From NCBI RefSeq assembly GCF_035918015.1, contig NZ_CP109132.1:2852001-2916000 (forward strand): DNA of 64,000 nt. Reading direction: 5' to 3'. Positions 48,104-58,217 of the stretch are shown one piece after another; the stretch's first letter is position 1; every line of letters starts with the position of its first letter. The position numbers and the translations under genes are program-made. This DNA is from Streptomyces sp. NBC_01754 (lineage in GTDB: Bacteria > Actinomycetota > Actinomycetes > Streptomycetales > Streptomycetaceae). The notes below the pieces were generated by a model, which saw only the letters and a program-made list of their open reading frames with translations, searched no databases and was not told where the DNA came from.

Positions 48104-48991
48104 TCAGACCGGTTCTTTGCCTTCGGCCGGTCCCTTCCCCGCCGCGTTCTTCGCCGCGACCACCGCGTCGAAGACCTCGCGTTTGGGCAGGCCGGTCTCG
48201 GCGGCGACCGCCGCGATGGCCTCCTTGCGCCGCTCGCCCGCCTCCTCGCGCACCCGTACCCTGCGCACCAGCTCGGCGGCGTCCGGCTTCTCACCGCCGG
48301 TGTCCGCGGCGCCCTCGACGACGACGGTGATCTCGCCCCGTACCCCTTCGGCGGCCCAGACGGCCAGCTCGCCCAGCGGCCCGCGCCGCACTTCCTCGTA
48401 CGTCTTGGTCAACTCCCGGCACACGGCGGCCCGGCGGTCCTCACCGAACACCTCGGCCATCGCGGCCAGGGTGTCGTCCAGCCGGTGCGGTGCCTCGAAG
48501 AAGACCATCGTGCGCCGCTCGCCGGCGACCTCGCGCAGCTTCCCGAGCCGCTCGCCCGTCTTGCGCGGCAGGAAGCCCTCGAAGCAGAAGCGGTCCACGG
48601 GCAGGCCGGACAGGGCCAGCGCGGTCAGCACGGCCGACGGGCCCGGCACGGCGGTGACCTTGATGTCCCGCTCGACGGCCGCCGCGACGAGCCGGTAGCC
48701 CGGGTCGGAGACGGACGGCATCCCCGCGTCCGTGACCAGCAGGACCCGCGCCCCGCCGGCCAGCGCCTCGACGAGTTCGGGCGTACGCGCCGACTCGTTG
48801 CCCTCGAAGTAGGAGACGACACGCCCCGTCGTGTGGATGCCCAGGGCCTGGGTGAGCCGGCGCAGCCGCCGGGTGTCCTCTGCGGCCACCACGTCGGCCG
48901 TCTCCAGTTCGGCGGCGAGCCTCGGCGGGGCGTCCGCCACGTCACCGATGGGGGTCCCTGCCAGTACGAGCGTTCCAGTCGTTCCAGTCAC
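48104..48991 (-). CDS. rsmI: 16S rRNA (cytidine-1402-2'-O)-methyltransferase
   Basis: 295-residue SAM-dependent enzyme of the tetrapyrrole-methylase fold. Motifs: LVLAGTPIGD at the N-terminus, AEDTRRLRRL, TDAGMPSVSDPG (about residues 89-100), PGPSAVLTALALSG, and FLPRK. The C-terminal helix KREVFDAVVAAKN completes the family. It is divergent from pmt with a 61-bp gap. Confidence 0.95.
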   Translation of the reverse strand: MTGTTGTLVLAGTPIGDVADAPPRLAAELETADVVAAEDTRRLRRLTQALGIHTTGRVVSYFEGNESARTPELVEALAGGARVLLVTDAGMPSVSDPGYRLVAAAVERDIKVTAVPGPSAVLTALALSGLPVDRFCFEGFLPRKTGERLGKLREVAGERRTMVFFEAPHRLDDTLAAMAEVFGEDRRAAVCRELTKTYEEVRRGPLGELAVWAAEGVRGEITVVVEGAADTGGEKPDAAELVRRVRVREEAGERRKEAIAAVAAETGLPKREVFDAVVAAKNAAGKGPAEGKEPV

Positions 48992-49052
48992 ATCACCATC
49001 CTCCCAGCACGGGCGGTCCCCCTCCTACTGGCACGTTCCCTACGATGGCGCG

Positions 49053-50798
49053 GTGACGAGTACTGCGCCCGAGGCCCGGCAGGGTGACGACGCCGGGAAC
49101 CCCGCCTGCGACCAGCCGCCCTCCTGGCAGCGGCGGCTGCGCCGCTTCGGCCATTCCGCACGTCCGGAGACGGGGCTGCGCGAGCGCCTGGTGCCGCCGT
49201 ACACCCGGCCCGGACGCCAGTTCTGGGACGTCCTCGCCGTGCCGCCGGCCTGGGCGGACCGCCTGGTGCGCTGGTCCGCCTGGGGCGGGCCGCTCCTGGT
49301 GACGCTGGTCGCCGGGGTGCTGCGGTTCTGGAACCTGGGCAGCCCGAAGGCGGTGATATTCGATGAGACGTACTACGCCAAGGACGCCTGGGCGCTGATC
49401 AACCAGGGGTACGAGGGCGCCTGGCCCAAGGACGTCGACAAGCAGATCCTCAGCGACCCGTCGTCGGTGGCCGTCCCGGTGGAGCCCGGCTACGTCGTAC
49501 ATCCCCCGGTCGGCAAGTGGATCATCGGCTTCGGTGAGCAGCTCTTCGGGTTCACGCCGTTCGGCTGGCGCTTCATGGTGGCACTGCTGGGCACCGTCTC
49601 GGTCCTGATGCTGTGCCGGATCGGCCGGCGGCTGTTCCGCTCCACGTTCCTGGGCTGTCTGGCGGGCACACTGCTGGCGGTGGACGGCCTGCACTTCGTG
49701 ATGAGCCGGACCGCCCTGCTCGACCTCATCGTGATGTTCTTCGTACTCGCCGCTTTCGGCTGCCTGCTCGCCGACCGGGACTGGGCGCGCCGCCGGCTGG
49801 CCGCCGCGCTGCCGGTCGACGAGGACGGGGTGCTGCGCCCGGACGCGGACGTCGCGGCGAGGCTGCGGCTGGGGTGGCGGCCCTGGCGCATCGCCGCGGG
49901 CCTGATGCTCGGGCTGGCCTTCGCCACGAAGTGGAACGGGCTGTACGTCCTGGCCGCGTTCGGTGTGATGGCGGTGCTCTGGGACGTGGGCGCGCGCCGC
50001 ACGGCCGGGGCGGCGCGGCCGTACCGCACGGTGGTGCTGCGGGACCTGCTGCCGGCCTTCGTCTCCACGGTGCCGGTGGCGATCGCCACGTACCTGGTCT
50101 CGTGGACCGGCTGGATCGTCACGGACAAGGGCTACTACCGCGACTGGGCGGCCAACGAGGGCAAGGGCGGCTTCTGGTCCTCGCTGCTGCCGGACTGGCT
50201 GCGCAGCCTGTGGCACTACGAGAACCAGGTGTACGACTTCCACATCGGCCTGACCTCCGGCCACACCTACCAGTCCGACGCGTGGAGCTGGATCGTGCTG
50301 GGCCGCCCGGTCTCCTACTTCTACGAGGACGAGCCGGGCTGTGCCGCCTCGGCGACCGGCAAATGCGCCCGCGAGGTCCTGGCCATCGGCACCCCGCTGC
50401 TGTGGTGGGCGGCCTGCGTGGCGCTGCTGTACGTGCTGTGGCGCTGGTTCTTCCGGCGTGACTGGCGGGCCGGCGCGATCGCCTGCGGGGTGGCGGCGGG
50501 CTGGGTGCCCTGGCTCTTCTACGAACGGACGATCTTCCTGTTCTACGCGGTCGTGTTCGTGCCGTTCCTCTGCCTGGCGGTGACGATGATGGTCGGCGCC
50601 CTGCTGGGACCGGCGGTCCGGACCGCTCCGGAGGGCGATCCGGCCGGTGAGCGCAGACGGATGCTGGGGGCGATCGCGGCGGGTGTGCTGGTGCTGCTGA
50701 TCCTGTGGAACTTCATCTATTTCTGGCCGCTGTACACGGGCACGTCGATCCCGGAGAACTCCTGGCGGGACCGTATGTGGCTGGACAGCTGGGTCTAG
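49053..50798 (+). CDS. pmt: Protein O-mannosyltransferase (GT39), 3' end rewritten by element integration
   Basis: 581-residue polytopic membrane enzyme that transfers mannose from polyprenyl-phosphate-mannose to secreted proteins. The catalytic acidic pair is in FDETYYAKDAW (about residues 103-113, first outer loop), followed by PPVGKWIIGFGE. About ten or eleven TMs follow, and the C-terminus has FIYFWPLYTG. GTG at 49053, weak site. The last 28 codons are duplicated at 58134-58217. Here the gene ends GTC-TAG, while the downstream copy ends GTG-TGA. The protein is unchanged, so the element restored the reading frame. Confidence 0.94.
   Translation: MTSTAPEARQGDDAGNPACDQPPSWQRRLRRFGHSARPETGLRERLVPPYTRPGRQFWDVLAVPPAWADRLVRWSAWGGPLLVTLVAGVLRFWNLGSPKAVIFDETYYAKDAWALINQGYEGAWPKDVDKQILSDPSSVAVPVEPGYVVHPPVGKWIIGFGEQLFGFTPFGWRFMVALLGTVSVLMLCRIGRRLFRSTFLGCLAGTLLAVDGLHFVMSRTALLDLIVMFFVLAAFGCLLADRDWARRRLAAALPVDEDGVLRPDADVAARLRLGWRPWRIAAGLMLGLAFATKWNGLYVLAAFGVMAVLWDVGARRTAGAARPYRTVVLRDLLPAFVSTVPVAIATYLVSWTGWIVTDKGYYRDWAANEGKGGFWSSLLPDWLRSLWHYENQVYDFHIGLTSGHTYQSDAWSWIVLGRPVSYFYEDEPGCAASATGKCAREVLAIGTPLLWWAACVALLYVLWRWFFRRDWRAGAIACGVAAGWVPWLFYERTIFLFYAVVFVPFLCLAVTMMVGALLGPAVRTAPEGDPAGERRRMLGAIAAGVLVLLILWNFIYFWPLYTGTSIPENSWRDRMWLDSWV
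50711..50794. repeat. attL: 84-bp direct repeat inside the pmt 3' end
   Basis: 84 bp identical to 58134-58217 except one base (G at 50732, C at 58155); the last 62 bp are perfect. This is the recombined attachment site of the tyrosine-recombinase element. Confidence 0.93.
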
Positions 50799-50846: not shown

Positions 50847-50996
50847 TGGTTCCTGGCCCTCATTGGTGGTTGTTGGCGAGCCCCGGACGGCCCACAGGCG
50901 GCCCGGCCAGACGACAAGGCAAGCAACAAGGGGAGCCGAGGGGAGGGCTGTGAGGCCTGGTCCTGGCAAAGCCAGCATCTCGCCCCTCCCCTCTTC
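50847..50996. other. Element sequence between terminator and inverted repeat
   Basis: 150 bp. I see no gene; it contains a short hairpin (CTGGCAAAGCCAG). Confidence 0.4.
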
Positions 50997-51463
50997 CTGA
51001 GAGTCCGCAACATCCGCCACGCCGCCACACCGCAGGTCAGAGGCTTGGATCTGTGGCGGATACCGAATCTGTGGCGGATAGCTCCCGCCACACGAAGAGC
51101 GCGGGCCAGGGCGAACAGCAACGGGGACGCCTTCGGCGACGACCTTCGGCGCACCACTGCCGGATACAGCCGGGGCCGGTTCGGCGATGACGGGGTTGGT
51201 GGCTAGTGCAGACGGCTCTTAGATGGGGGGGCCGGCCGACTGTAGTGGCGAGAGAGTCCCCCCTTAAGAGCCTCCATCGCAGGCGCACCAGGCCCGGCCG
51301 GGGATCCGTTGCCCGGCGTCCTCGGGTGGAGCCCCGCTCGCAGGAGGCTTTTCAGGGGGGCACCCTTCCTCCAGGTCCGCTACCTCCGCTACCTCCGCTA
51401 CCGCGCAGGTCAGAGCGGGTGCCAGAGGTAGCGGCAAAGGTAGCGGTAGCGGACAGAACCGCC
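50997..51463. repeat. Left arm of a ~467-bp inverted repeat
   Basis: The reverse complement of 51864-52332. The arms differ only by a G/C-run change near 51225-51231 (net two bases) and one substitution near the outer edge. It contains two core copies (51031-51040 and 51404-51413, both CGCAGGTCAG on this strand), with CCGCCAC-type and CCGCTACC-type short repeats around them. Confidence 0.93.
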
Positions 51464-51863
51464 CCGGGCCTGTCGGGCATGGATCTCGGGGAGGTGAAGG
51501 CCGCGCCTGACCCGTGCTGCTGGCGCCGACTCGGCGCACCTGTCCGAGGGCTGGATCTCTGCGTCACCGCGTCATCTGCGTCACCCGTGGGGTCTGACCT
51601 GGGGTTTTGTGGTGACGCAGAGGCGTCGGAGTGCGTCATTGGTGACGCAGACGTCCGTCATCGATGACGCACTGGGTGATGCACGATGACGCAGACGAAG
51701 CCGCTCTGCGTCACCCTCATAGTCGCAGGTCAGGGGACGTTTTCCGTCTTCTGGTGACGTGGTGACGCTGTACTGCGGCACGCCTCGCAGCGTGAAAAAC
51801 GTCCCCTTGTGCGGCCTTGAGGAGCAAGAGGAGCACGCCGCGCGCCGGTGCTCTTCTTGCTCT
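51464..51863. repeat. 400-bp centre of the inverted repeat with GTGACGCAG iterons
   Basis: Two further core copies (51594-51603, CTGACCTGGG; 51724-51733, minus strand) are flanked by CTGCGTCA on one side and GTGACGCAG on the other. About ten copies of the TGACGCA octamer or its complement lie between 51558 and 51770. No credible gene. Confidence 0.85.
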
Positions 51864-52332
51864 GGCGGTTCTGTCCGCTACCGCTACCTTTGCCGCTACC
51901 TCTGGCACCCGCTCTGACCTGCGCGGTAGCGGAGGTAGCGGAGGTAGCGGACCTGGAGGAAGGGTGCCCCCCTGAAAAGCCTCCTGCGAGCGGGGCTCCA
52001 CCCGAGGACGCCGGGCAACGGATCCCCGGCCGGGCCTGGTGCGCCTGCGATGGAGGCTCTTAAGGGGGGACTCTCTCGCCACTACAGTCGGCCGGCCCCC
52101 TCCCATCTAAGAGCCGTCTGCACTAGCCACCAACCCCGTCATCGCCGAACCGGCCCCGGCTGTATCCGGCAGTGGTGCGCCGAAGGTCGTCGCCGAAGGC
52201 GTCCCCGTTGCTGTTCGCCCTGGCCCGCGCTCTTCGTGTGGCGGGAGCTATCCGCCACAGATTCGGTATCCGCCACAGATCCAAGCCTCTGACCTGCGGT
52301 GTGGCGGCGTGGCGGACGTTGCGGACTCTCAG
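51864..52332. repeat. Right arm of the ~467-bp inverted repeat
   Basis: Mirror of 50997-51463. Core copies are at 51914-51923 (flanked by CCGCTACC to the left and GGTAGCGG x3 to the right) and at 52289-52298 (flanked by CCGCCACAGAT x2 to the left and GTGGCGG to the right). Confidence 0.93.
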
Positions 52333-52470
52333 AAGGGAGGGGGCGGGTAGCGGGACTCGTCCGCTACCCGCTACCCCATCCGCTACCTGGATCATGCCTC
52401 TGACCTGCACGGTAGCGGAGGTAGCGGAGGTAGCGGACCTGGAGGGAAGGGGGGGCAGAGCGGATCTGTC
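52333..52470. repeat. Third copy of the GGTAGCGG repeat module
   Basis: CCGCTACC x3 (52350-52387), core CTGACCTGCA (52400-52409), then GGTAGCGG x3 (52410-52440). It repeats the module inside the arms, outside the inverted repeat, just past the GNAT stop. Confidence 0.85.
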
Positions 52471-53001
52471 TTACGCAGGTGAGACGAGAGCCACCGCGTC
52501 CACACCCTCCCCGTCTTCGAGGTGGTGCACGATGCGGCCGATCTCTTCCCATCCGAGCCGCCGATAGAGACGAACGGCGGACCGGTCCTTGACCATCACG
52601 TCGAGCACCAGCCTCAAGCCGTGACGGTCTGCATAGGCTTGGGCCGCCTGAACCAGGCGTTCGCCCACAGATTGCTTTCGCGCCTCAGGGAGAACGAACA
52701 GCCGGGCGAGTACGCCTACCTCCGATTCGTCCGCGCCAGCGCGCTGATTCCATAGACCCACGGCGCCTTCACCGGCCGGTCGATTCACGGAAACGTGACC
52801 AACCACGTCTCCGTCTGCGACAGCCACCCATGCTTGGAGGGCCTCAGCGGCTGTCAGCCACTCTTGGGGCTGGCTGACTCCCTCTACGGGGTATCCGTCC
52901 ACCGCGTGCACCGCGACCAGCGCAGATGCCGCCTGAGGAATGTCCGCGCTGGTTCGCGGCCTAACGACTACCTCGGACAATGGCGCCTTCTCCCTGGGCA
53001 C
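52471..53001 (-). CDS. GNAT-family acetyltransferase on the element
   Basis: 176 residues. N-terminal strand VVRPRTSADIPQAASAL; acetyl-CoA loop in VLARLFVLPEARKQSVGERL (about residues 95-114), then SAVRLYRRLGWEEIG near the C-terminus. The loop is less Gly-rich (KQSVGE) than usual. The GTG start overlaps the gntR stop by one base, so the two are co-expressed. The substrate is unknown; it may be cargo or act on an element or host protein. Base composition is lower in GC than in flanking chromosomal genes. Confidence 0.82.
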   Translation of the reverse strand: MPREKAPLSEVVVRPRTSADIPQAASALVAVHAVDGYPVEGVSQPQEWLTAAEALQAWVAVADGDVVGHVSVNRPAGEGAVGLWNQRAGADESEVGVLARLFVLPEARKQSVGERLVQAAQAYADRHGLRLVLDVMVKDRSAVRLYRRLGWEEIGRIVHHLEDGEGVDAVALVSPA

Positions 53002-53777
53002 TACTGAACGGCCAGTTCGTACTTCAGACCAGTGAGGTCAGACCGGTGAACGTACCGGGACACCTCGAAGGCCGCACCCTCCTGATCGAAGCTGGTGTGC
53101 AAGACCTCCAGTACGGGCACGCCGGCCGAGAGCCCGAGGACAGCGGCTTCGTGGGGCGTGGGCATCCGCGCAATGATCTCGTCCCGAATCGTCGTCATTG
53201 CGTGACCGAGTTCTTCGAGACGGCCGTAGATGCCGTTGGGTCCGCTTCTCGCCTCCATGAGCAGCGTGCCTTCCGCTTCGGCCCACTTGAGATAGGTCGA
53301 GACGATCTGAACGGGCTCGTCATCCGCGAAGTAGTGGTTCTCTCGATGCACGACGCTCCGCTCTTCCGGAGAGACACCCAACCGCTCCGCGATGTCGGAG
53401 GGCGGCACCTCTCGGGCGATCGAAGGAACGTCAATCCGGGCGGTCTTCCCTTGACGCTTGGCCTCCAGGCGGAAGGGGGTCAGGCCCGACTCGCGGTTCT
53501 TGAGCGAGTACCGATCGCTTCCGAACCGGAAGAGGCGGCGGGGCTCTCGCACGAAGACGCCGCGCCCATGTTCGGCAACGACAAGGCCCTGTTCAGCGAG
53601 TAGCCGGATCGCCTCACGGGCGGTGTTGCGCGCGGCTCCGTACTGCTCTGCGAGCACTCGTTCCGACGGGACCTTGTCCCCCGGTCGAAGCTCGCCGGAC
53701 TCGATGGCAGATCGGAGCGCCTGAGCAATGAGCCTGCTGGCGGGGGGCTGGCTTTCGGCGTTTCCAGACGGGGTCAT
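53001..53777 (-). CDS. GntR/HutC-family repressor of the element
   Basis: 258 residues. N-terminal winged HTH (about residues 10-75: GDKVPSERVLAEQYGAARNT, VAEHGRGVFV) and a C-terminal UTRA ligand-binding domain (EERSVVHRENHYFADDEP, ISAGVPVLEV-like end). GntR proteins of this type (KorSA-like) silence transfer and excision genes in Streptomyces integrative elements. The ATG at 53777 is chosen; a TTG at 53792 would overlap the promoter. It is divergent from the gene at 53935 across three palindromic operators. Confidence 0.87.
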   Translation of the reverse strand: MTPSGNAESQPPASRLIAQALRSAIESGELRPGDKVPSERVLAEQYGAARNTAREAIRLLAEQGLVVAEHGRGVFVREPRRLFRFGSDRYSLKNRESGLTPFRLEAKRQGKTARIDVPSIAREVPPSDIAERLGVSPEERSVVHRENHYFADDEPVQIVSTYLKWAEAEGTLLMEARSGPNGIYGRLEELGHAMTTIRDEIIARMPTPHEAAVLGLSAGVPVLEVLHTSFDQEGAAFEVSRYVHRSDLTGLKYELAVQ

Positions 53778-53783
53778 ACCGCC

Positions 53784-53870
53784 ATTATACAACTGGCTTG
53801 AGCCAGTAGCTTGACGCCCGATGAGCTGTCATGTTCAACTGGCTCAAGCCAGTAAGTGGCTCAAGCCAGT
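53784..53870. promoter_or_regulatory. gntR promoter with three palindromic operators
   Basis: A perfect TATAAT -10 lies on the minus strand (53784-53789). Three 16-bp copies of ACTGGCTYRAGCCAGT or a close variant are at 53792-53807, 53838-53853 and 53855-53870. The first sits in the spacer of the gntR promoter. Together they fit autoregulation and control of the divergent genes. Confidence 0.78.
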
Positions 53871-53934
53871 GGGAGCGACGCCCCTCCGCCACAGAAGTTC
53901 GTCGCTCCCCTTTGACCCTCGAAGGGGTAAGACC

Positions 53935-54456
53935 ATGATGCCTGGAACCTTAGCGACGCCGCTTCCCCGTGTGCCGGGTCAGTCCGGTTGTGCGGTGCGG
54001 GTGCAGGACCTGACCGGCGCTGAGCGGGCGGTTGCCCTGTACGCGTCGGACATGCCGAACCGGTACCGCACCACGGACGACGCCCAGATCACCGAGTGGG
54101 TCATGCAGGGCATCGACCGTGTGGGCCTGGACGAGGTCCGCAGCCGGGCCGCGTATGCCGAGGGCTATCGGCGCCTGACTCGTGTCCGGATGGCCACGCC
54201 CCAGCTCGCGGCGCGCCACGAACAGAACTTCCCCAAGGCCAACCGCCTGCTGGTCGCGGCCCGCCACACCGCGAATCTGAACCTGTACGCCCCCATGTCC
54301 ACCGCAGCCCGTACGCGCAACCTCACGGCTGACGTCGATGGCGTATGCCCCTGCAAGGGCACCCGCACGATTCCGCTGTGGCAGGACGAGGACGCGGCCG
54401 TCGGTCTGGCCTGCCCCGTCCACGCGGCCACCAGGCGCCCGGCGGTGCAGGCGTGA
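53935..54456 (+). CDS. Element protein of unknown function with Cys-rich C-terminus
   Basis: 173 residues; I do not recognise a family. The body is helical (QDLTGAERAVALYASDMPNR, YAEGYRRLTRVRMATPQLAA). The C-terminus has VCPCKGTRTI and LACPVHAAT, a possible three-Cys/one-His metal site. The ATG at 53935 follows GAAGGGG; an ATG one codon later is equally possible. It is the first gene after the GntR operators and overlaps the next gene by four bases (GTGA). Confidence 0.72.
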   Translation: MMPGTLATPLPRVPGQSGCAVRVQDLTGAERAVALYASDMPNRYRTTDDAQITEWVMQGIDRVGLDEVRSRAAYAEGYRRLTRVRMATPQLAARHEQNFPKANRLLVAARHTANLNLYAPMSTAARTRNLTADVDGVCPCKGTRTIPLWQDEDAAVGLACPVHAATRRPAVQA

Positions 54457-55220
54457 GCGCCGCCACCACACACACGGCGGCCCTGTTCGCGCAGGCGCCC
54501 GCCCGCCCGCACGGAGCCCTTGTGGCCCGTGCGGGCGACACGGGGCCCCTGTCGGTTCCTGTCGGGGGCATTTGGGACGTGACCTGCGAGGAAGCGGCTG
54601 CCGCGCTGTTCGAGGTCTACAGCGACGAACACGCTGTGCCGGGCATCACCACGGACACTCTGTACGCCTTGCTCGGCACGGCCGTGAGTGAGCTGGGACC
54701 GGTCGGGCTTGTCGAGACGACCGATGTGTTCTCGGGACTGGACTCGGTGGAGTTCCCGGAAGTCGGGGCGTGTCGCTGGTACGCCTATCGGCTGGCCCTG
54801 TCGTTCTGGTACAAGGGCGCGCGGTCGCGGCCGATGGCGGCCGGTGAGGCCGCCGCCGCACTGGCCTTGTCCGGGTACACCCTTACGTCTGGTGCCGGCC
54901 GACTCGATCCCGGCACTCTCGCGCGTCAGGTCCGTGAAGGCGCGGCCCGGGTCCCCACGGCTGCCCTGCTCCAGCTTGGCCGTGCGGTAAGTGCCGACCT
55001 GGCCCGCATTCCCGACCCGGGCGGCAGTGGGACGTGGCTGTACCGCCGTCTGCTGCCCGACTGGCAGCGCGCTCGGCACTGCCTTGGCCTCATCCGCGGC
55101 AGCGTCTCCGTGCCGCTGCCGCTGGTCGTCCGGACCGACGACGACACCTACCGGATCGGCGCCACACCGCCGCCGGGCCCCGGCATCCGATGGGCCCGCC
55201 CACTGCGCGCGCAGTGGTGA
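54453..55220 (+). CDS. Element protein of unknown function
   Basis: 255 residues, GTG start inside the upstream stop. Mixed helical protein with the conserved-looking stretches LGPVGLVETTDVFSGLDSVE and YAYRLALSFWYKGARSRPM. A C-terminal part (LPDWQRARHCLGLIRGSV) is followed by a short Pro/Arg end. No TM, Walker or catalytic motif is visible. Coupled translation with 53935 suggests one function or complex. Confidence 0.7.
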   Translation: MSAATTHTAALFAQAPARPHGALVARAGDTGPLSVPVGGIWDVTCEEAAAALFEVYSDEHAVPGITTDTLYALLGTAVSELGPVGLVETTDVFSGLDSVEFPEVGACRWYAYRLALSFWYKGARSRPMAAGEAAAALALSGYTLTSGAGRLDPGTLARQVREGAARVPTAALLQLGRAVSADLARIPDPGGSGTWLYRRLLPDWQRARHCLGLIRGSVSVPLPLVVRTDDDTYRIGATPPPGPGIRWARPLRAQW

Positions 55221-55231
55221 CCAGCCGCCCC

Positions 55232-55275
55232 CTGACCTGCGTGACGACCCGCGTCACACCCACCGTCACGCCTGG
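55232..55275 (+). repeat. Core with GTGACG repeats
   Basis: Core CTGACCTGCG (55232-55241) is immediately followed by alternating GTGACG/CGTCAC units. It lies in the 64-bp gap before the HNH gene. Confidence 0.7.
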
Positions 55276-55284
55276 AGCTCTCCT

Positions 55285-56040
55285 GTGAGCACTCGTCACT
55301 TAACCGCGTCTCTTCGGCGCCAACGCAAGGAACAGCTTGCCCGGCGCCACGGCGCCCGGTGCACGTACTGCCACCGGCCTTTCGCCTCACTGCGGGAAGC
55401 CACGCTCGACCATATTGCGCCACGCTCGCTCTTCTCGACCTGGTCCGTGGTCCACCTGACACTCGCGTGCCAGCCCTGCAACCACACCAAGGCCGACCGA
55501 CTCCCGCTGTCGCTCGCCCTCCTCATCCTCTGGACCCTGGCCCCCGACCGACTGGCGGACCACCCCGTGAACGTTGGTGTTCACGGTTCGGTTACCGCGC
55601 TGGTCGGCCAGGCACCTGACGCACGTACCGAAGCACAGAACCCGCAGGTTGAAGCCCGTCGAACGCGGATGAACAGTGCCCAGTCGCCCACCGCGTTCAC
55701 CCCGATCGACTGGCGTCTCCTGGCCCGCCTCGCACACGCCCACCAATCGACCACAGCTACCCGTGAACAGACCCGTGAACACCGTGAACAGACCCGTGAA
55801 CACCGTGAACAGACCCGTGAACACCGGCCCGCCATCAGCCATCGCACCGGTCGGCCGACTCAACCGACCGCCACCCCGCCGCTCCCAAGCGCCGAGCACC
55901 GGACACGAGGAGTCTCCAGCACCCATGACCATGAAGCCGATCGAGACCCTGCGGGCCGGACTTCCCGACCGCTACCTCACGACCGAAGACCTCGCCGCCA
56001 CCCTCGCCGTGCCGATCGAGACCGTCTACCACTGGCGTAA
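55285..56040 (+). CDS. HNH endonuclease-like protein with internal repeat
   Basis: 251 residues. The HNH domain at about residues 10-75 shows CTYCHRPF, the catalytic DHIAPRS and a second CQPCNHTK, a Zn-bound four-Cys HNH. After about residue 150 a seven-residue unit REQTREH is repeated about three times (DNA 55757-55825, CCGTGAACA-type repeat). The last 39 codons run in a different frame through the downstream HTH gene and look like read-through. The C-terminus may therefore be degenerate. It may nick DNA for the element; unproven. Confidence 0.72.
   Translation: MSTRHLTASLRRQRKEQLARRHGARCTYCHRPFASLREATLDHIAPRSLFSTWSVVHLTLACQPCNHTKADRLPLSLALLILWTLAPDRLADHPVNVGVHGSVTALVGQAPDARTEAQNPQVEARRTRMNSAQSPTAFTPIDWRLLARLAHAHQSTTATREQTREHREQTREHREQTREHRPAISHRTGRPTQPTATPPLPSAEHRTRGVSSTHDHEADRDPAGRTSRPLPHDRRPRRHPRRADRDRLPLA
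55564..55825 (+). repeat. GTGAACA repeats inside the HNH gene
   Basis: A hairpin CCGTGAAC-N6-GTTCACGG (55564-55586), then seven copies of CGTGAACA in tandem 21-bp units at 55760-55825. The sequence differs from the other repeat families of the element. Confidence 0.7.
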
Positions 56041-56146
56041 GCGCCGCATCGGCCCGCCCGGCTTCCGCGTCGGTCGCCACGTCCGCTACGACCCCGCCGC
56101 CGTCCGCGACTGGATTACGCAGCAGACCGACCGCGACACCGCCTGA
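55925..56146 (+). CDS. Excisionase-like helix-turn-helix protein
   Basis: 73 residues. A MerR/AlpA-type winged HTH covers nearly the whole chain (YLTTEDLAATLAVPIETVYH, then WRKRRIGPPGFRVGRHVRY). Such small proteins upstream of int act as recombination directionality factors. The start is an ATG with GAGGAG upstream; a second ATG is two codons on. It overlaps the HNH frame by 116 bp. Confidence 0.82.
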   Translation: MTMKPIETLRAGLPDRYLTTEDLAATLAVPIETVYHWRKRRIGPPGFRVGRHVRYDPAAVRDWITQQTDRDTA

Positions 56147-56807
56147 CCCGCTGGGGTAAAGCCCTCCCCCTCTACCCGGGAGCTCCCGGCGCCCCGCCCA
56201 CCGAGGGGTAGTCGGGGCCTATACCTCCCCCTCACCAGTAGAGGGGCCCCTTTACCCCGGTAGAGGGGGAGGTAGGGCCCTTCGACCTGCGAGGTAACGG
56301 GGGTAGAGGGGGTGGGGCGCCCCCGCCGTGGCACTGCCGCCGAAGCCCACCACGGTGCATCCGAAGCCGACAGGCGCGCATCCGAAGCCCATCGGGTCAC
56401 GACCGAAGCAGACCAGACCGCGTCCGAAGCCGAGCCCGAGGCGGGGAGGGAGTTGGGGAGTCGCGCACATCCTGGGGAGTTCTCCCCAACCGCCTCCCCA
56501 ACCCACCCCACCCACGCTGATCAGCGACAACACCCCAGTTGGGGAGCGTGGGGAGGCTGGGGAGGCACCACCGGAGCCCCCAGAAAACCCCCGGAACCGG
56601 GGTCCTGGACACCCTCCCCCGCCTCCCTCCCCAAGGCTCTGCGCGCCCCCTGCACCTGCCACCCCCGTGCCAGGGAGGCAGTCCCTCCGGCGCAGGGAGG
56701 TAGGGAGGCACCCCCGGACCCACCCGGAAACCCCCGGAAAACGCGGTTCCCGACACCCCCTGCCTCCCTCCCTGAACCACCACCACACCGAGAGGAGTCA
56801 GCCCCCC
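56147..56807. repeat. Repeat-rich region upstream of int
   Basis: 661 bp with several distinct repeat sets and no convincing gene. At 56150-56325 GGTAGAGGGG/CCCCTCTACC units surround the core variant TCGACCTGCG (56282-56291). At 56338-56440 there are CCGAAGCC units about 18 bp apart. At 56448-56575 TTGGGGAG and TCCCCAA units form inverted sets. At 56615-56780 GGGAGGTAGGGAGG/CCTCCCTCCC units surround CTGCACCTGCC. A long reading frame through it (from GTG 56328) is repeat translation. Confidence 0.8.
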
Positions 56808-58067
56808 ATGGCTGGCCACATCCAAGACCGCTGGTACAAGACCGAACCCGACACCACCGGCAAGCCCGTACGCCTCAAGACCGACCGCCACGGCACCGGG
56901 ATGCGCTACCGCGCCCGCTACATCGGCCCCGACGGAACCGAGAAGTCCAAGAGCTTTCCGGACAGGCAGAAGCGACTTGCCGAGCAGTGGCTGACCAAGA
57001 CGGCCGCTGACATGGCGGGCGGGCAGTACATCGACCCCCGTGCCGGCCGCATCACCTTCCAGCAGTTCGCCGAGAAGTGGGTGGCCACGCACACCACCGA
57101 GGTGAACAGCCGCGAGGCTGCCGAAAGGCGGCTACGGTTGCACGCGTACCCGTACATCGGTACGCGGCCTCTCCCGTCGTTCCAGCCAGGGCACATCCGT
57201 ACCTGGTTGGGTGAGCTGGAGGCCAACGTCCCCGCCGCCTCGCACCGACGGATCATCTTCGGAACGGTTTCGGCCGCCTTCAGTGCCGCCCTGGATGACG
57301 GCCTGGTGAACAAGAACCCCTGCAAGGCCAAGTCCATTCAGATCCCGAAGGGGAACCCCGCAAGGGTGTCTCCCTGGACGGCCGCCCAGGTCTTCGGCGT
57401 GCGGGAGGCACTGCCGGAGCGTCTGCGGGCGACGGTGGACCTTGCCGGCGGATGCGGGTTGCGTCAGGGAGAAGTGTTCGGGCTCTCGGAAGACGAGTTG
57501 GACTACGGGGGCGGCTGGCTATCCGTCCAACATCAGCTCAAGCGGATTCGCGGGAAGTTCGTCTTCGCGCTACCGAAGGGCGCCAAGACTCGCGATGTCC
57601 CCCTTCCCTCGGCCGTAGCGGAGGCCCTGAAGGCCCACACGGAGAAGCACCCGCCTGTCCGGGTCACGTTGCCGTGGCGGACTCCCGACGGGCCTCCCGT
57701 CACCAAGTCACTGATCTTCACGGGAGCGAGCAACGATCACGTCCGGGTCAGCCACTTCAATGACTGCATGTGGAAGCCCGCTCTTGCTGCCGTGGGTGTC
57801 ATCCCCGAGCCCGAAGAAGGCGAGCGGTACGCGGCGGCGCCGCACGATGGGATGCACGCACTCCGGCACTTCTACGCGTCGGTTCTTCTGGACGCGGGCG
57901 AGAACATCCGTGCTCTGAGCAACTACCTCGGCCACTCGGACCCCGGATTCACTCTGCGTATCTACACACACCTGATGCCGAGCAGCGAGGGGCGAACGCG
58001 ACGCGCCGTAGACAGCCTCTTCCGATCGCCTCCAGACCATGATCACGGCCCAGAGGCGGCCCCATAG
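56808..58067 (+). CDS. int: Tyrosine recombinase (integrase) of the element
   Basis: 419 residues. SAM-like arm and core-binding region to about residue 175; catalytic domain with the first Arg in GGCGLRQGEVFGL, the HALRHFYAS (His/Arg) box, the LGHSD box and the Tyr nucleophile in TLRIYTHLM near residue 385. The ATG at 56808 follows GAGAGGAG. It is the last gene before attR, the standard place, and is followed by a strong terminator. It belongs to the branch that uses 3' ends of genes as attB. Confidence 0.93.
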   Translation: MAGHIQDRWYKTEPDTTGKPVRLKTDRHGTGMRYRARYIGPDGTEKSKSFPDRQKRLAEQWLTKTAADMAGGQYIDPRAGRITFQQFAEKWVATHTTEVNSREAAERRLRLHAYPYIGTRPLPSFQPGHIRTWLGELEANVPAASHRRIIFGTVSAAFSAALDDGLVNKNPCKAKSIQIPKGNPARVSPWTAAQVFGVREALPERLRATVDLAGGCGLRQGEVFGLSEDELDYGGGWLSVQHQLKRIRGKFVFALPKGAKTRDVPLPSAVAEALKAHTEKHPPVRVTLPWRTPDGPPVTKSLIFTGASNDHVRVSHFNDCMWKPALAAVGVIPEPEEGERYAAAPHDGMHALRHFYASVLLDAGENIRALSNYLGHSDPGFTLRIYTHLMPSSEGRTRRAVDSLFRSPPDHDHGPEAAP

Positions 58068-58133: not shown

Positions 58134-58217
58134 CTTCATCTATTTCTGGCCGCTCTACACGGGCACGTCGATCCCGGAGAACTCCTGGCGGGACCGTATG
58201 TGGCTGGACAGCTGGGT
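58134..58217. repeat. attR: second copy of the pmt 3' end
   Basis: 84-bp partner of 50711-50794. It retains the likely original chromosomal end TGG-GTG-TGA of pmt, right beside the native downstream gene. Confidence 0.93.

Follow-up and report, generated by a model that had tools for sequence, protein, structure and literature searches.

An integrated element of 7.4 kb, located at about 50.8–58.2 kb of the window (the whole stretch of 64,000 nucleotides from Streptomyces sp. NBC_01754 analysed here), houses nine sites of a short core motif. Homologues of its sites, alike in sequence, spacing, and orientation, lie next to Rep and TraB genes in other elements. Judging from the sequence, the element is probably a satellite, or mobilizable relative, of actinomycete integrative and conjugative elements (AICEs), carrying origins for multiple helpers. 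This suggests that it rides on whichever helper mobile element is present. The first-pass annotation had suggested multiple origins or transfer sites, each fitting a different helper, a reading supported by the positions of related modules after RepAM, RepPP-like, and TraB genes.

The element is bounded by 84-bp direct repeats on the + strand (50711..50794 and 58134..58217, 99% identical over 84 nt), which correspond to the 3' end of the PMT (protein-O-mannosyltransferase) gene at 48831-50798. The circular AICE record L048 (NZ_CP107792.1) contains this att sequence at 89% identity across 75 bp and an int gene that is 81% identical to that of the element. Together with these att repeats, the tyrosine integrase gene (56808..58067, +; PF00589, E 9e-14) forms a site-specific integration module as in AICEs. 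The element further encodes an Xis-like helix-turn-helix protein (55925..56146, +; PF12728, E 2e-10), an HNH endonuclease-like protein (55285..55929, +; PF01844), a GNAT acetyltransferase (52471..53001, −; PF00583, E 4e-16), and a GntR/UTRA regulator (53001..53792, −; PF00392, PF07702). ORF173 (53935..54456, +), which has relatives in L057, L086, L218, and L222, has no match in Pfam or NCBIfam and no assigned family. ORF255 (54453..55220, +; 255 aa, AlphaFold pLDDT 88) is an uncharacterised marker gene of the element family; it has at least 85 related protein clusters, and every named host is a Streptomyces. A replication initiator gene of the RepSA, RepAM, or Prim-Pol/RepPP type was not found among the ORFs of the element with Pfam, and the RepAM, RepPP, and PrimPol HMMs built for this analysis were all negative. 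Likewise, Pfam and a TraB HMM, which detected 20 of 22 control loci, gave no FtsK/SpoIIIE-type TraB gene in the element. Both types of search thus bear out the earlier statement that it lacks Rep and Tra genes. RepSA had no match in the host genome. The element therefore combines an integration module without tra genes of its own, as in satellite or mobilizable elements, with cis sites that match helper Rep or Tra by DNA homology and position.

All nine core positions reported previously were confirmed, with 0–2 mismatches. The core is exact at 51031 (−), 51404 (−), 51724 (−), 51914 (+), 52289 (+), and 55232 (+), has one mismatch at 51594 (+) and 52400 (+), and is diverged at 56282, where it reads TCGACCTGCG with two mismatches. 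With up to one mismatch, the core occurs 26 times in the window, compared with 9.8 expected occurrences and a maximum of 20 in 100 shuffles. A detector scoring core plus repeats found six modules in the element at a threshold of 16, none in the remaining 56.6 kb, and none in 200 dinucleotide shuffles; at a threshold of 14, it recovered seven of the nine listed sites. The nine sites are not independent, as four are copies arising from a 483-bp inverted repeat. Its left arm (50983..51463) is 98% complementary to the right arm (51864..52342) in a 483-column alignment. At most seven sites are independent, because 51031/52289 and 51404/51914 represent one pair of sites that was copied. The description of most sites as bracketed by repeats holds for the seven recovered, while 55232 fails as a repeat module and is probably none. 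At 56282, GTAGAGGGG occurs mostly as direct repeats, and two additional arrays (56442-56592 and 56672-56735) had been overlooked.

Three Rep-linked types of site have homologues in the element, arranged concentrically with the RepPP type in the centre and two RepAM types around it. In this cassette, DNA identity to helper sites is 71–92% over about 90–240 bp among the best 45 of 341 matches, which also underlie the identity values that follow. The outermost module contains GTGGCGG repeats and is of RepAM type R2/R3. Its left copy (50990..51104, −; core 51031) shows 83–87% identity to the region after the RepAM genes of L108, L114, L164, and L165, and its right copy (52225..52340, +; core 52289) 83–88% identity to L108, L111, L114, L165, and L166. 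The middle module is of RepAM type R1, and its left copy (51375..51454, −; core 51404) has three GTAGCGG repeats on each side; the right copy lies at 51873..51952 (+; core 51914). In the centre, a convergent pair of TGACGCAG modules of RepPP type (51541..51768; cores 51594+ and 51724−) aligns at 71–80% identity across about 230 bp with sequence that follows RepPP-like genes, for instance in L233, L240, and L244. The two cores are spaced by about 130 bp, and 14 of 17 listed helper pairs have a spacing of 128–129 bp. An additional R1 module (52340..52452, +; core 52400) matches RepAM-linked sites at 85–92% identity across about 113 bp, with L049 from the same genome at 85%. Adjacent to the outermost module is a fragment of helper DNA (51101..51187, −; second copy at 52142-52228), which is 93% identical to L163, where it lies upstream of RepAM, and 89% identical to L114, where it sits between Prim-Pol and RepAM. 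The RepAM gene is absent between this fragment and the module. Thus, the element has the core with inverted and direct repeats of RepAM class, but these adjoin no repAM gene within it.

Independent helper loci were identified by protein rather than by motif. The TGACCTGC core was located within 500 bp downstream of RepAM/DUF3631 in 82 of 90 loci, and less often upstream (10/90), 700–1200 bp downstream (3/90), or in the gene body (12/90). Among the matches listed, it also lies within 500 bp downstream of RepPP-like helicase genes (28/30) and of one TraB family (22/30). In a motif-blind count, TGACCTGC was the commonest 8-mer after RepAM, both in close (36/40) and distant loci (46/50). Full modules were present in 40/40 close and 28/50 distant RepAM loci, whereas 98 permuted cores gave on average 1.4 (at most 20) and 0.4 (at most 11), respectively. 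Most of the 22 distant loci without a module nonetheless contain the TGACCTGC 8-mer. Modules stand directly after the RepAM gene in all 52 full-length rows (65–100% identity) and, among the matches listed, directly after 26 of 30 RepPP-like genes and 27 of 30 genes of the one TraB family; the 285 kb of background sequence examined contain a single module. RepAM sampling covered 102 of 128 rows (90 + 12), the other 26 being partial or of 41–46% identity; the RepPP, TraB, and RepSA tests comprised 30 loci each among the matches listed. Modules were detected at a threshold of 16 in the RepAM loci and of 14 in the RepPP and TraB loci. The association anticipated in the first-pass annotation, i.e. 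modules next to Rep or TraB genes with matching repeats, was thereby found. The module signature was also present in 7 of 15 RepAM-like loci outside Streptomyces.

The repeats vary by family and track the RepAM tree of 102 proteins, with 11 changes compared with 57.2 in shuffled data (0 of 200 shuffles as low). In agreement with the suggestion that changeable repeats match different helpers, the GTAGCGG, GTGGCGG, and TGACGCAG modules have counterparts beside Rep genes in pattern searches whose repeat words were drawn from the window. In these searches, GTGGCGG modules occurred in 8 of 150 genomes, namely in the window element and seven RepAM elements. The geometry is likewise shared: in helpers, RepAM sites are often arranged as divergent pairs and RepPP sites as convergent ones, as in the element. 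Doubled GGTGACGCAG was observed in four loci outside the window. Two of them (L115 and L117) carry RepPP-like genes, L116 carries a different helicase of about 32% identity, and in L118 nothing was recognisable.

Such sites could also serve as iteron decoys, with which the element or its host titrates or handcuffs incoming initiators and blocks competing AICEs instead of replicating. Extra iterons are known to interfere with iteron plasmids, and many repeat copies of several specificities would make an efficient sink. However, direct repeats alone would suffice for a decoy, whereas the copies retain the full module, from the core and its two flanking arrays to the orientation and spacing of the pairs, and int, Xis, and att sites are retained as well. 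This explanation is therefore considered unlikely, albeit the strongest of the alternatives.

ORF255-type proteins mark 17 unique loci, reduced from 19 as L224 and L226 duplicate L084 and L082, respectively. Two or more Rep classes are found in 8 of these 17 loci, compared with 0 of 26 helper elements; this count recognises only the supplied repeat words and omits the TraB-type sites of the window, the core of which is diverged. All helper loci except L049 were first found by motif, so that selection accounts for the presence of a first class in them but not for the absence of a second. The class assignment of R2 in L222 is weak. No Rep-type class was counted in three loci: L083 has no module at all, and L217 and L220 have the TraB type only, their class counts being limited by sequence that ends shortly before the marker gene. 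HMM searches of selected stretches around each element detected TraB in 0/17 and RepAM in 0/17 loci, a result that is less certain for L217, L220, L221, and L223, because contig ends shorten these loci. Six of the 17 loci encode a RepPP-like helicase of their own, and the family is therefore not uniformly Rep-less. L081 and L223, which belong to the eight loci with multiple classes, have the GCGGACGCT class after this helicase, and it may be their own. L085 contains four nested repeat types in the layout of the window element, and nested, mirrored layouts recur in the distantly related L085, L084, L221, L057, and L219. Inverted arms of more than 100 bp are present in six of eight unique elements checked, with 94–100% identity between arms.

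These layouts bear on a further possibility, that the modules are inactive debris of several AICEs which integrated successively at one site and then decayed. AICE decay is described as common in Streptomyces (PMC9513070, in the part drawn upon here), a module persists in L055, a RepAM element that has decayed, and the intergenic Prim-Pol/RepAM fragment survives in the window element without its genes. Concentric pairs are not expected from random decay, though, and neither the recurrence of nested, mirrored layouts with near-identical arms in distant relatives nor the mixing of classes in eight family members, against one class in each of 26 helper elements, fits well with debris. Decay into remnants is thus quite improbable.

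Towards the integrase gene, the sites are of a different type. The site at 56238..56311 (+) with the diverged core 56282 has GTAGAGGGG repeats, for which no helper was found among 246 genomes; the sole other copy of the pattern in these genomes adjoins the ORF255 element of G023. The GGGGAGG site at 56442..56592 (+), a TraB-type (clt-like) site, has a core reading CTGATCAGC (56517). From 56474 onwards, it is 75–83% identical to sites directly after the TraB genes of L271, L274, L275, L280, and L283, and over its full stretch 81–85% identical to the ORF255 elements L081 and L217. In a second TraB-type array with AGGGAGG repeats (56672..56735, +), positions 56693-56735 are 81–86% identical to post-TraB sites in L261, L262, L267, L272, L276, and L277. 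The presence of the core at TraB sites is not explained by a purely replicative role of the core. The least probable alternative is that every module serves conjugation, as a clt/TRS site for one of several TraB proteins. The sites directly downstream of the one TraB family and the AGGGAGG-type sites beside TraB in both RepAM and RepPP elements could be cited for it, but the GTAGCGG, GTGGCGG, and TGACGCAG classes adjoin Rep genes, and GTAGCGG is common to RepAM elements whose TraB relatives differ.

Returning to the satellite with multi-helper origins, we infer from homology and position that the sites are origins and transfer sites on which helper initiators would act in trans, and that the element may excise and transfer. 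It would have kept its integration genes, while replication and transfer genes were lost or never present. Three or more replication classes of helpers would be represented by origin copies in a concentric stack, in which the TGACGCAG pair, as RepPP/Prim-Pol origin, is innermost, the RepAM origin (GGTAGCGG) surrounds it, and the GTGGCGG RepAM-type origin is outermost. The element would further carry a spare GGTAGCGG module and, near int, TraB-type transfer sites. When a matching helper is active, its initiator would bind the matching repeats and start replication of the excised circle, which the helper TraB could then move. The constant core would presumably be read by a shared component, e.g., Prim-Pol or a host factor. 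One candidate helper resides in the same genome: L049, about 1 Mb from the window element, has int, Prim-Pol, TraB, the R1-type RepAM of the host, and a matching GGTAGCGG module. Of the three Rep classes, one is thus matched by a helper in the host genome; the genome has no RepPP-like match at E 1e-60 and no GTGGCGG module outside the element, and its remaining two RepAM genes have ACGGCA/ACGGAT repeats.

More generally, the chances are slightly better than even that Streptomyces satellites evolve by collecting cis-sites of helpers, yielding a nested, mirrored, universal origin socket with a universal core, swappable iterons, and alternative TraB sites. With such a socket, in which origins of unrelated initiators are nested, helpers of three or four types could each fire the same replicon. 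The core would be read by a component that Prim-Pol-type origins have in common, with the iterons conferring specificity, and origin modules could therefore be gained like cassettes. The modular origin suggested here would have separable constant and specificity elements. The helper range of satellite and mobilizable elements is poorly understood, and here the DNA would reveal it: every module points to a class of initiator or TraB, allowing helpers and satellites to be paired by sequence. Furthermore, TGACCTGC with class-specific iterons directly downstream of an initiator gene constitutes a signature that predicts RepAM/RepPP Prim-Pol origins.

Geminivirus satellites offer a parallel, as they lack a rep gene and are replicated by several helper Reps via iterons. 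They differ in being satellites of plant single-stranded DNA viruses with rolling-circle replication and unrelated proteins. SGI1-type mobilizable islands, to our knowledge, depend on a single helper family and have no helper-specific origin stack. SGI1 is described as an integrated island whose transfer relies on a helper element (PMC7433901, in the part consulted), as is proposed for the element. AICEs with RepAM (DUF3631) or RepPP plus Prim-Pol, as presented in the portions of Ghinet et al. 2011 (PMC3218068) used here, resemble the element in tyrosine integrase-mediated site-specific integration, the Xis-like gene, the GntR regulator, and homologous origin-region DNA. Unlike these AICEs, the element has several origin classes instead of one, and no Rep, Prim-Pol, or TraB was found in it. 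Defective AICEs are likewise integrated, without tra and/or rep, and possibly helped in trans, but they are identified by having traB, and the descriptions drawn upon here include neither a multi-specificity origin cassette nor a marker family. A counterpart of the helper loci is the plasmid pWTY27, in which, according to the sections of PMC3583192 considered, RepA, whose partner RepB is a predicted primase/polymerase, binds an iteron adjacent to its gene, and clt is bound by TraA. As in the helper loci, the initiator gene adjoins inverted and direct repeats, in this case ones bound by its product, a Prim-Pol partner is predicted, and clt lies beside tra; unlike the element, pWTY27 is an autonomous plasmid with one such locus (PMC3583192). 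The likeness is one of gene and repeat layout, with the CTGACCTGCG core outside the comparison. From this analogy and the position of the modules, we infer that RepAM initiators would bind to them.

The nine core sites listed by the first-pass annotation are present in the window, eight of them with at most one mismatch and the ninth with two. They are not all independent, as an inverted repeat of 483 bp (98% identity) accounts for four sites, which represent two originals and their duplicates. A detector requiring the core plus repeats found six modules, all of them within the element; the other 56.6 kb of the window and 200 shuffles gave none. This is far above chance expectation. The element lies in a Streptomyces-type chromosome (window G000:C1:2852001-2916000). 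A PMT gene ends at 50798, and 84 bp from its 3' end recur at 58134-58217 with 99% identity. Between these repeats, genes for a tyrosine integrase, an Xis-like HTH protein, an HNH protein, a GntR/UTRA regulator and a GNAT acetyltransferase are found, together with two unknown ORFs, ORF173 and ORF255. Pfam and HMM searches of its ORFs revealed no Rep, Prim-Pol or FtsK/TraB gene, in agreement with the earlier description of an element without Rep or Tra. The int gene is 81% identical to that of L048, a circular AICE record (NZ_CP107792.1), and the att sequence is shared. A palindrome (TGGCTTGAGCCA or TGGCTCAAGCCA) occurs three times at 53790-53871, ahead of the GntR gene, and is a probable operator. 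Within the HNH ORF, three perfect tandem repeats, spaced by 21 bp, occupy 55761-55826 in its C-terminal part.

It had been proposed that such modules would adjoin Rep or TraB genes with matching repeats and would not be scattered away from mobile elements. Both expectations held: modules were found 3' of RepAM genes, RepPP-like genes and one TraB family, and a class-based detector yielded a single module in 285 kb of other Streptomyces sequence. The GTAGCGG pattern matched in 23 of 150 genomes of the genus, directly 3' of a RepAM (DUF3631) gene except in two ORF255 elements (the window's and L057); in L055 the module follows a RepAM remnant. Prim-Pol, TraB-like and integrase genes are usually also present in the RepAM-bearing elements. 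GTGGCGG modules occur in eight of the 150 genomes, comprising the window's element and seven RepAM elements, and form a divergent pair in every one. Modules with TGACGCAG lie 3' of RepPP-like helicase genes that have a Prim-Pol gene as neighbour; this arrangement occurs in L117 and in the plasmids L044 and L046. A doubled GGTGACGCAG accompanies a RepPP-like fragment at a contig end (L115), a different helicase (L116) and no recognisable gene (L118).

The association is also apparent when starting from the proteins. A protein search for RepAM returned 128 rows in 77 of 150 genomes, and 90 loci were examined. TGACCTGC was found within 500 bp downstream in 82 of these, compared with 10 upstream, 3 at 700-1200 bp downstream and 12 in the gene body. 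In a motif-blind count it is the commonest downstream 8-mer, at 36/40 close and 46/50 distant loci. Modules follow RepAM at 40/40 close and 28/50 distant loci, while 98 permuted cores gave means of 1.4 and 0.4 (maxima 20 and 11), respectively; 12 additional close rows all carry a core module. On a quick tree of 102 RepAM proteins, in which near-copies favour clustering, the repeat class changes 11 times, compared with 57.2 after shuffling (0/200 shuffles as low). RepPP-like genes have a module at 26 of 30 loci, with TGACGC in 25 of these, and the 8-mer core at 28. Among 15 RepAM-like loci outside Streptomyces, the core (at most one mismatch) occurs with other repeats at seven and not at the other eight. 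No module was detected at 30 loci of RepSA, a rolling-circle class according to the literature. The host chromosome encodes two more RepAM proteins, L202 (about 4.23 Mb) and L178 (about 4.97 Mb), with repeats ACGGCA and ACGGAT; the window's element carries neither.

In one TraB family, whose identity was confirmed by PF01580, an AGGGAGG or GGGGAGG module lies within about 130 bp at 27 of 30 loci, and the 8-mer core at 22. AGGGAGG accompanies this TraB in RepAM elements (L063, L064, L120) and also where a RepPP-like gene is a few kb away (e.g., G013, G018, G040); thus, the repeat tracks TraB and not Rep. The core CTGACCTGC at TraB-linked sites (L063:6735, L064:5065, L257-L286) is identical to that of Rep-linked sites, and often two convergent cores flank the repeats. 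Near int, at 56442-56735, the element has two arrays that the first-pass annotation did not contain, GGGGAGG/TGGGGAG and AGGGAGG, with 75-86% identity over 43-121 bp to sites 3' of helper TraB genes.

In helpers, RepAM sites frequently form divergent pairs with a spacing of about 115-185 bp; RepPP sites are convergent pairs, spaced by 128-129 bp in 14 of the 17 listed. In the window, a divergent GGTAGCGG pair (51404-/51914+) encloses a convergent RepPP-type pair (51594+/51724-, about 130 bp apart), and GTGGCGG modules (51031-/52289+) form a further divergent pair outermost. With spacings of about 510 and 1260 bp, both divergent pairs are wider than in helpers. Judged by sequence, these concentric pairs are putative nested origins. 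Among the matches listed, 51541-51768 is 71-80% identical to RepPP sites over about 230 bp, 52340-52452 is 85-92% identical over about 113 bp to R1 RepAM sites (GTAGCGG type), including that of L049, an AICE of the same genome, and the outer modules are 83-88% identical to R2/R3 sites (GTGGCGG types). Such identities of 71-92% indicate DNA homology beyond mere motif resemblance. Both inverted-repeat arms carry an 87-bp piece (51101-51187 and 52142-52228) with up to 93% identity to helper DNA, possibly another cis element. In L114 it sits between Prim-Pol and RepAM; in the window, no RepAM separates it from the module, and the arms resemble a helper replication locus trimmed to its cis-sites.

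ORF255 has at least 85 related protein clusters among the matches listed, all from Streptomyces where an organism is named. It occurs in 9 of 392 genus genomes; with 10 loci from GTDB contigs, 17 unique loci were obtained. At least one Rep-type class is present at 14/17 and at least two at 8/17; 26 helper loci used for comparison have exactly one apiece. At least one TraB-type class occurs at 11/17, the window's own diverged TraB-type sites not being counted. HMM searches found TraB and RepAM at 0/17 each, a Prim-Pol fragment at one (L057) and a RepPP-like helicase at six. In L085, TGACGC, GTGGCGG, GGTAGCG and TGTAGCGG are nested about a single centre, and inverted arms above 100 bp occur in six of eight elements checked. 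The helicase of L080, L081, L086, L218, L220 and L223 is divergent (about 33% identity), with a GCGGACGCT module 3' of it in four; these six lack Prim-Pol and are possibly half-autonomous relatives. L116 resembles them without having ORF255. In L085, L217, L219, L220 and L221, a second ORF255-like gene (about 30% identical) lies immediately upstream, in the place of ORF173 in other elements. Streptomyces misionensis strain 66 harbours two related but different ORF255 elements (L219, L221) on two contigs.

The sites are read as putative origins because of their position, the co-variation of repeats with RepAM and the analogy to pWTY27, in which RepA binds a neighbouring iteron (PMC3583192). In the probable mode of action, the excised circle would offer origins that several initiators can read; an AICE, whether resident or incoming, would supply an initiator that binds its own repeats and replicates the satellite, and the TraB-type sites would permit transfer. 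The repeats would be the specificity part, and a shared partner, either Prim-Pol or a host factor, probably recognises the core, which occurs at RepAM, RepPP and TraB sites alike.

Listings from an open-access collection, searched with terms other than the core sequence itself, contained no account of a multi-helper origin cassette or of this core, and an earlier one may exist in subscription papers, which were mostly outside this survey; the sections consulted of PMC11389934, which reviews helper-dependent elements, include neither. Ghinet 2011 (PMC3218068) equates RepAM with DUF3631 and names Prim-Pol modules; elements lacking tra or rep are mentioned there as either remnants or mobilizable. 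For pSAM2, no clt is described according to Choufa 2022 (PMC9513070), which also considers help for defective AICEs possible.
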